From the NCBI GenBank assembly GCA_017537565.1, contig JAFYKQ010000047.1:1-38231 (forward strand): 38,231 bases of DNA, given 5' to 3'. The stretch comes from Flavobacteriales bacterium. GTDB taxonomy: Bacteria > Bacteroidota > Bacteroidia > Flavobacteriales > UBA1820. A program made the position numbers and the translations under genes. Within the stretch, counting starts at the first letter, position 1, and the number at the start of each line of letters is the position of its first letter. Below, in pieces: positions 18,491 through 19,750 of the stretch. A model generated the notes under the pieces. That model did not search any database, had not been told where the DNA came from, and worked only from the letters and a program-made list of their open reading frames with translations.

Positions 18491-19234
18491 TTAATATGCA
18501 GAAGATGTGCTGCCTTCTTTGTATAGTTTAAGAGCAGATGATGTTCCTATGCGTGTAACACCCATCTCTATCATAGTGATGGCTGTAGCCATATCGCGTA
18601 CGCCTCCCGCAGCTTTAAGTGGTAGAGGAGAACCCCATTCTTTCATCACTTCCAGTGCTTCTATTGTAGCACCGGCAGGTTTTCCGCCTTCGGTCTTATA
18701 GAAACCGGTAGATGTTTTAAGGAATACTCTGTGTGCATTTTCCTCTCCGAAGTTGTCTATTACAGTGTCTTTTATAAGTTCACAGATGCCTTCTATCTCG
18801 TCCTCGCGTAGGGCAGCAGTCTCTATTATCCATTTGGCTGTTTTCCCTGCTTTAAGAGTAAGTTCTGTGCAACGACGTACCTCTTCGCTTATGGTTTCTA
18901 CCTTGCCACGTTTATACATAGGGTAGTTCACAACAAAATCAAGTTCGTCGGCACCGTCCTCGATTACTTTGCTGGCCTCGGCCAATTTTTCATCTATCGA
19001 TGCTGTGCCTTCGGGGAAAGCGATGACCGTTCCCACCAGTACCTGGCTGCCAGCCTCATCTATCATCTTGCGAGCAGTAGAGACGACATCTGGGCGTATC
19101 ATTATGAGTTTAAAATCATTTTCTATGGCTTCTTTTATATAAGAAGAAGCGATGGCGAGGTTTTCTTCCTGTGAGATGCCTCGGCTTTCGGCGGTTTCCA
19201 GATATGTGGAATCCAGATATTGACGTATGTCCAT
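18491..19234 (-). CDS. deoC: Deoxyribose-phosphate aldolase
   Basis: This 247-residue class I aldolase splits 2-deoxyribose-5-phosphate into glyceraldehyde-3-phosphate and acetaldehyde during deoxynucleoside breakdown. The Schiff-base lysine is K173 in LKTSTGF, the acid/base residues include D99 in DELDFVVNY, and the second lysine lies in LKAAGGVRD. The length is typical. It is the first gene of a deoC-cysQ pair. Its promoter (TTTG-N20-TAAATTTG) overlaps the terminator hairpin of a separate upstream short transcript. Confidence 0.93.
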   Translation of the reverse strand: MDIRQYLDSTYLETAESRGISQEENLAIASSYIKEAIENDFKLIMIRPDVVSTARKMIDEAGSQVLVGTVIAFPEGTASIDEKLAEASKVIEDGADELDFVVNYPMYKRGKVETISEEVRRCTELTLKAGKTAKWIIETAALREDEIEGICELIKDTVIDNFGEENAHRVFLKTSTGFYKTEGGKPAGATIEALEVMKEWGSPLPLKAAGGVRDMATAITMIEMGVTRIGTSSALKLYKEGSTSSAY

Positions 19235-19275: not shown

Positions 19276-19307
19276 CAAATTTAGATATAAAAAAAGAACT
19301 TGCCAAA
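19276..19307 (-). promoter_or_regulatory. Promoter of deoC-cysQ
   Basis: On the minus strand TTTG (19307-19304) and TAAATTTG (19283-19276) are separated by 20 bases, an exact fit. The -33 box lies inside the 3' arm of the upstream terminator hairpin. The deoC leader would be about 35 bases. Confidence 0.7.
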
Positions 19308-19322
19308 GAAGATTTGACAAGT
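19289..19322 (-). terminator. Intrinsic terminator upstream of deoC
   Basis: The minus-strand RNA forms a 10-bp stem ACUUGUCAAA/UUUGGCAAGU with loop UCUUC, followed by UC and seven U. One pair is G-U on this strand but would be C-A on the other strand, so it is built for the minus direction. Confidence 0.8.
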
Positions 19323-19380
19323 CCTAAAAACTAACCTAAACTCAAAACTATAACTATGAAACTACTACTTTCTTTTTTAA
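19289..19380 (-). ncRNA. Candidate small RNA of about 90 nt
   Basis: The unit has its own promoter (-7 box TATCTTTG), no usable ATG start in the transcribed part, and a strong intrinsic terminator. About 58 bases between promoter and hairpin are nearly free of C on the RNA strand (one C apart from the last base before the stem) and should stay single-stranded. An accessible segment followed by a terminator hairpin is the usual layout of trans-acting small RNAs. deoC has its own promoter after the terminator, so this is probably not just a deoC leader. I cannot assign it to a named RNA family. Confidence 0.5.
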
Positions 19381-19385
19381 CGGTG

Positions 19386-19416
19386 CAAAGATACGACTTT
19401 TCTGCAAACTAGCAAT
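19386..19416 (-). promoter_or_regulatory. Promoter of the candidate small RNA
   Basis: The minus strand reads ATTG (19416-19413), 19 bases, then TATCTTTG (19393-19386), an exact -7 box followed by C as often seen. A second TTTG at 19408-19405 is too close to act as -33. Confidence 0.65.
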
Positions 19417-19453: not shown

Positions 19454-19750
19454 TTATCTCATTACCATTTGTAAGGGTGACACACCGTGGCGTAAAACGG
19501 TCTTAAAGTCGTAGTATTCGTTGGGAGATACAGAAATGTCTATATCTTCAGACGTAGTAAGTGGTAGCCAATGCCTGTCCAATTCATCTACATTTACTAC
19601 GTGGAAGAGTCTTCCCTGTACTATGTCTGTGTTCTCTGGAATGATGGTTTGTTGAGGGGAGTAGTCATTGTTTTTGCTACACGCTACTATAAATAGTATG
19701 GATATAATAGTGATGGGAAGTAATAGTCCCTTATATAAAAAGTTTTTCAT
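19454..19750 (-). CDS. Small orphan lipoprotein of unknown function
   Basis: This 98-residue protein has a lipoprotein signal: a hydrophobic segment at about 8-23 and lipobox IVAC with Cys24. The mature part is only 75 residues, polar, with VVNVDELDRHWLPLTTSEDIDISVSP in the middle. I recognise no family. It lies 40 bases downstream of a flippase-like membrane gene on the same strand and probably shares its transcript. No terminator of its own is visible before the next promoter, so the hairpin at 19289-19322 may end this transcript too. Confidence 0.7.
   Translation of the reverse strand: MKNFLYKGLLLPITIISILFIVACSKNNDYSPQQTIIPENTDIVQGRLFHVVNVDELDRHWLPLTTSEDIDISVSPNEYYDFKTVLRHGVSPLQMVMR

Follow-up and report, generated by a model that had tools for sequence, protein, structure and literature searches.

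A putative three-copy small RNA family in a Flavobacteriales-like gut lineage, predicted to pair with the start codon of a susC mRNA

Upstream of the deoC gene in the 38,231-nucleotide stretch of DNA analysed here (the window), the minus strand carries two promoters and an intrinsic terminator, which raises the question whether this sequence is a leader of deoC or a small RNA gene in its own right. Read along the minus strand, the locus consists of a promoter (promoter 1), a C-poor segment, a terminator hairpin with a run of seven T and a further promoter (promoter 2). Promoter 1 (19386–19416) has the form ATTG-N19-TATCTTTG of the major sigma type of Bacteroidota, with ATTG at 19416–19413 and TATCTTTG at 19393–19386. 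The predicted sRNA, hereafter paralogue A, would extend over 19289–19380 (about 85–91 nt, its start being derived from the promoter spacing and its end from the terminator). It would comprise the conserved C-poor 5′ segment (19326–19369) and the terminator (19289–19325), whose hairpin arms (19324–19313 and 19307–19296) enclose a 5-nt loop and are followed by the T-run at 19295–19289. Promoter 2 (19276–19307), the putative promoter of deoC (18491–19234, minus strand; DeoC/LacD aldolase family, Pfam PF01791), has the form TTTG-N20-TAAATTTG, with its TTTG box (19307–19304) lying within the 3′ arm of the hairpin and TAAATTTG at 19283–19276.

The two promoters, the C-poor segment and the position of the second promoter box in the hairpin had all been described in a first-pass annotation, and all are present in the sequence. 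The same annotation had described a 10-bp hairpin with a single G-U pair that fixes the direction. The terminator and its seven T were borne out, but the stem comprises 12 bp (13 if A19325-T19295 is counted). There are, moreover, two G-U pairs instead of one (19323/19297 and 19317/19303), both of them C/A mismatches on the opposite strand, and the direction read from them stands. The folding energy of the minus-strand RNA (−18.0 kcal/mol, z −3.1), which is better than that of the plus strand (−8.4 kcal/mol, z −1.9), agrees with this direction. In the predicted folds of A, its orthologue in the related genome G001 and the two paralogues introduced below, pairing is weak in the 5′ part and strong in the 3′ hairpin. 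In the sister genome G002, regions upstream of genes contain TTG-N19-21-TANNTTTG at 0.84 per kb, some 13-fold above the average of 0.063 per kb and strand for the entire genome, which makes the promoter reading reasonable for this lineage. The sRNA is immediately preceded, at 19454–19750 on the minus strand, by a 98-aa lipoprotein-like open reading frame without a Pfam match; the sequence in this region differs in G001.

The window belongs to a genome (G000) of 1.71 Mb which is 97% complete. As the closest deoC relatives (94% and 72% identity) are from Flavobacteriales, one of them recovered from the colon of a water deer, the host is a metagenome-assembled member of a Flavobacteriales-like gut lineage and the earlier label Bacteroidales was wrong. 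A blastn search with the unit revealed two further copies in the same genome, B (C35:8886-8974) and C (C71:1191-1259). A and B have the 5′ arm of the terminator in common, while the terminator of C is unrelated to that of A and the core is the same. All three copies are kept at orthologous places in relatives of the genus, namely A and C in G001 and G002, and B in G001, G002 and G003. A profile of the 45-base core returned, at E ≤ 3.4e-9, exactly ten copies from 396 genomes of the order, all belonging to groups A, B and C, and only the three own copies when 395 genomes of the class were searched. TAnnTTTG-type promoter boxes are found upstream of the copies; the one in G003 starts at a contig end with TACCTTTG.

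The pattern of conservation is that of an RNA with a fixed 5′ part and a flexible terminator. Between the window and the G001 orthologue, 55 consecutive bases from the C-poor segment through the first terminator arm are identical, whereas 30-base windows up- and downstream share only 17–57% and the deoC coding sequence 53–73% identity. Over about 40 bases the core is near-invariant in all ten copies, each of which holds a CAU. The terminator stem, in contrast, is retained although its sequence changes among relatives: within group C, G000 and G001 agree in roughly the first 45 bases but differ in the stem, where the changes compensate each other, and over the ten copies 86.5% of the stem cells are paired, compared with 31–55% in slid controls. 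As the promoter motif is rare genome-wide and the unit both recurs and is conserved, the arrangement is not due to chance. The comparison thus strongly supports the independent RNA of about 90 nt predicted by the first-pass annotation, with paralogues away from deoC, an unchanging 5′ part and terminators that vary by compensation all pointing to an sRNA gene which is not bound to deoC. Whether C-poor segment and hairpin are conserved apart from deoC had been proposed as a check, and the segment indeed recurs in B and C, remote from this gene and each time followed by a terminator hairpin.

Several other readings of the unit have to be weighed against a free-standing sRNA gene. In three species A immediately precedes deoC, which would fit a terminator acting as conditional attenuator of this gene, with the C-poor segment as the sensor of a cis-regulatory element in the leader. 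Yet B and C carry the same segment and the genes downstream of them are convergent, so that they cannot be leaders and the element does not always precede a co-directional gene. In addition, deoC has a putative promoter of its own beyond the terminator, folding gave no stable alternative structure, and Rfam at curated thresholds matched tRNAs only and no riboswitch, all of which makes the attenuator very unlikely. We judge it just as improbable that RNA polymerase pausing at the terminator occludes the overlapping deoC promoter, as the first-pass annotation had suggested. Hairpin and promoter 2 do overlap in the window and in its close relative G002. G001, however, has kept the sRNA intact but lost the overlap: additional bases lie between the T-run and deoC, and a TAAATTTG box is missing at the hairpin. 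This leaves the occlusion unsupported; B and C, too, have no promoter that could be occluded.

A dispersed terminator or mobile element without any RNA function could account for three copies and for the terminator arm common to A and B. This idea has very little in its favour, as there are three copies only, located at orthologous sites and equipped with their own promoters, as group C combines the same core with an unrelated terminator, and as the whole unit is absent from phage and plasmid collections and from IMG/VR. The best phage match to the unit, in a river microvirus, was dismissed because only the terminator is in common. Least credible of all is a short open reading frame or leader peptide on the plus strand (MKLLLSFL...). 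Its ATG is open on that strand in groups A and B (ATGAAACTACTAC), but the frame is not kept, with group C reading ATGAAAAACTAA, the plus strand lacks full terminator pairing, and the conservation extends through the presumed untranslated part into the terminator.

Apart from the multicopy nature of the RNA, the first-pass annotation had overlooked the identity of its C-poor part. This segment is read as a seed; its sequence TTTCATAGTTATAGTTTT, when reverse-complemented, gives a translation start region (AAAACTATAACTATGAAA), and the part conserved in the family, TTTCATAGTTrTAGTTTT...GGTTAG, is antisense to the same start region. Beyond the genus, matches of the core model are rarely sRNAs and mostly lie antisense to start codons. 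Of 51 such matches, some of which are mutual orthologues so that they do not amount to 51 independent events, 40 oppose an ATG that opens a reading frame of 60 aa or more (null 18%), and a hydrophobic N-terminus is encoded in 34 of the 40 (null 3.9%). In three genomes (G502, G639 and G536), the leader of a 96-aa exported protein (AACTAACCCT..AAAACTATTACTATGAAAAA; loci L226, L228 and L246) mirrors nearly the whole sRNA core; an sRNA of the family was not found in these genomes. Within the own lineage, the general resemblance to start regions does not clearly exceed what base composition would give and is therefore, taken alone, no proof of targeting. Duplex energies in broad windows over all start regions did not discriminate, as AT-rich starts pair loosely with everything. 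In-register start-codon matches of A were within the range of flank-shuffled controls without a clear excess, and those of B were about 4-fold over the shuffled mean. With signal peptides assigned by a crude rule, exported genes were not enriched among the top duplexes in G002, and their mean in-register matching was slightly higher.

In Bacteroides thetaiotaomicron, susC mRNAs are repressed by FopS sRNAs, which base-pair with them at the start codon (PMC11697453). For this reason, the ranks of susC genes were singled out before the result was known when the start regions of G002, 1,470 in number, were ordered by duplex energy; they were taken from a simple ORF picker and scored irrespective of accessibility. 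The strongest SusC-family match of this genome (susC-1; C36:20778-23753) took rank 2 with A (−23.9 kcal/mol), rank 15 with B and rank 16 with C. With its orthologue in the window genome (contig C102), pairing was even stronger for A (−29.3 kcal/mol), B (−26.2 kcal/mol) and C (−26.0 kcal/mol), equivalent to ranks 1, 1 and 2 on the G002 scale; the value of A exceeds that of any of the 1,470 start regions of G002. In G001, the rank equivalents were 20 (A), 4 (B) and 3 (C) for a gene with a clearly different leader whose orthology is only probable, as its start lies on another contig than the rest of the gene. Dinucleotide-shuffled seeds reached the observed value in 0, 0 and 6 of 120 cases for A (G000, G002 and G001, respectively), in 2, 5 and 1 for B and in 0, 11 and 0 for C. 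All three predicted duplexes with susC-1 span the AUG. By simple arithmetic, the chance that one of three full-scoring SusC genes falls among the top two of 1,470 is about 0.4%. The complementarity to susC-1 is outstanding; the remaining SusC genes did not stand out as targets. The best-supported predicted target of the family is thus the mRNA of susC-1 on C102, where the gene forms a susCD pair with a SusD gene that follows it, one of only two SusD-type genes in the window genome; the claim is limited to susC-1.

Taken together, the unit is probably a free-standing gene for a trans-acting sRNA, one of three paralogues, which is predicted to repress susC-1 at its start codon. In each paralogue, a 5′ segment with little structure of its own would be followed by an intrinsic terminator. 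This conserved segment would pair with translation start regions, placing its CAU over the AUG, and the duplex over the susC start codon would block initiation. A, B and C together might thereby damp the synthesis of the outer-membrane transporter SusC and perhaps of other proteins. A candidate partner is an RRM-domain protein (RRM_1), encoded once per genome in all four members of the genus; in the window genome (L052:1096-1716, minus strand) it has 206 aa with a long, probably disordered tail rich in RG and NGGY. The computation directly shows the unit with its paralogues, how it is conserved and how outstanding its complementarity to susC is; transcription, repression, a protein partner and a physiological role are what we infer from this.

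The same RRM protein with its RG/NGGY-rich tail would also fit an independent sRNA which mainly binds a protein, either the RRM protein or a ribosome component, or which sponges another RNA. As all start regions are A-rich, any U-rich RNA resembles their antisense, and the likeness would then be a by-product of composition. We consider this unlikely, although not to the degree of the readings discussed above, as susC-1 is exceptional when compared with shuffled seeds and as the near-invariant core and its universal CAU exceed what a loose U-rich protein site needs.

Of the known systems, FopS (Rfam RF04319, BTncRNA_FopS) is also a multicopy family of RNAs of 70–90 nt with a single-stranded conserved 5′ seed and a variable intrinsic terminator. 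TAnnTTTG promoters occur in both, and in both the seed places CAU over the AUG of a susC mRNA, in the family described here by predicted pairing. Paralogue C starts with the same GUUUUUCAUAGU as the R1/R1′ seed of FopS, and its core (GUUUUUCAUAGUUAUAGUUUUUAGGUU) can be compared with GUUUUUCAURGUAUUAGAUUUAAGGUU in FopS. FopS is bound by RbpB, an RRM-1 protein. The middle and the 3′ part of the seed differ, the RRM protein of the present lineage has the long RG-rich tail, and FopS is present with 12–15 copies in Bacteroidaceae as opposed to three copies in the Flavobacteriales-like lineage. The Rfam model of FopS aligns with the RNAs over its full length and on the right strand, with 17.2 bits for A and 23.4 bits for C. 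C is the best match in G000 and G002 and A lies within the background; the cut-off of 56 bits was reached by no member of the genus, whereas phage-borne FopS copies score 74–78 bits with the same model. The top match in G001 (contig C14) was rejected, being a gene-end terminator with a chance CATAG. A search of IMG/VR with a bridging seed pattern found only FopS of the Bacteroides type, which our core model (R1) matches at E 0.06–0.8 and thus below significance. As architecture, start-codon pairing and target class match but the score is far below the cut-off, the family appears to work like FopS without being assignable to it by sequence.

GibS of B. thetaiotaomicron (Rfam RF04182) likewise pairs over start codons with a single-stranded 5′ seed (PMC7366714) and has the R1 seed in common with FopS. 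Unlike the present family, it is a single-copy RNA with a different promoter class, and its model (cut-off 115 bits) did not match the unit even at a permissive E of 10. Rfp18 of Flavobacterium psychrophilum, a conserved sRNA of the Flavobacteriaceae (PMC9723704) which was compared by its description, differs in being strongly structured, pairs via its third stem-loop and is needed for normal metalloprotease mRNA levels. OmrA/B and Qrr of Proteobacteria resemble the family as paralogous sRNAs with a common seed, with OmrA/B also targeting mRNAs of outer-membrane proteins (PMC11697453). They are, however, Hfq-dependent, unrelated in sequence and from another phylum.

Further candidates were observed in more distant genomes. 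In another family of the order, L232 (G030:C94:16164-16134, minus strand) combines a TATATTTGCAGC promoter with TTCATAGTCATAGTATTAAGATTAGGTTAGT and a T6 terminator and is likely a distant sRNA relative. L197 (G432) and L201 (G374), which follow directly after the stop codon of an efp-like gene with TTTTCATAGTTTAGTTTTAGGTTTAGGTT and a GGCTTCGG terminator with T7–8, are candidate FopS-like sRNAs derived from a 3′ UTR; the FopS model gives L201 a score of 31 bits. L212 (G441:C1:308821-308844), with a TAAATTTGCATC promoter, AGTGTTTTCATAGTTTTAGTTTTT and a strong hairpin (z −6.1), is another candidate sRNA. On 24 viral contigs of IMG/VR (L252–L275), FopS-type sRNAs were found whose terminators mostly differ and many of which have a promoter of their own, which extends the single phage case of PMC11697453. 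It is conceivable, although at present no more than a tentative and rather doubtful proposal, that FopS, the present family and the scattered relatives L232, L197, L201 and L212 form one phylum-wide "anti-start" class of sRNAs. Its seed would be the antisense of a typical start region of exported proteins in Bacteroidota, and it would set the translation of transporters and of the exported proteome, probably together with RRM proteins.

In the literature surveyed, control of susC transporters by sRNAs has been described for Bacteroidaceae only. The present findings make it probable that this type of control is not confined to Bacteroides and operates in a remote branch of the phylum as well. 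If true, the regulation of susC by sRNAs would be older and more widespread than thought, or it would have been invented independently. With three RNAs and two SusD-type genes, this lineage would offer a simpler system than B. thetaiotaomicron with its fourteen FopS RNAs, and the predicted pairing of A with susC-1 provides a concrete duplex that can be mutated.
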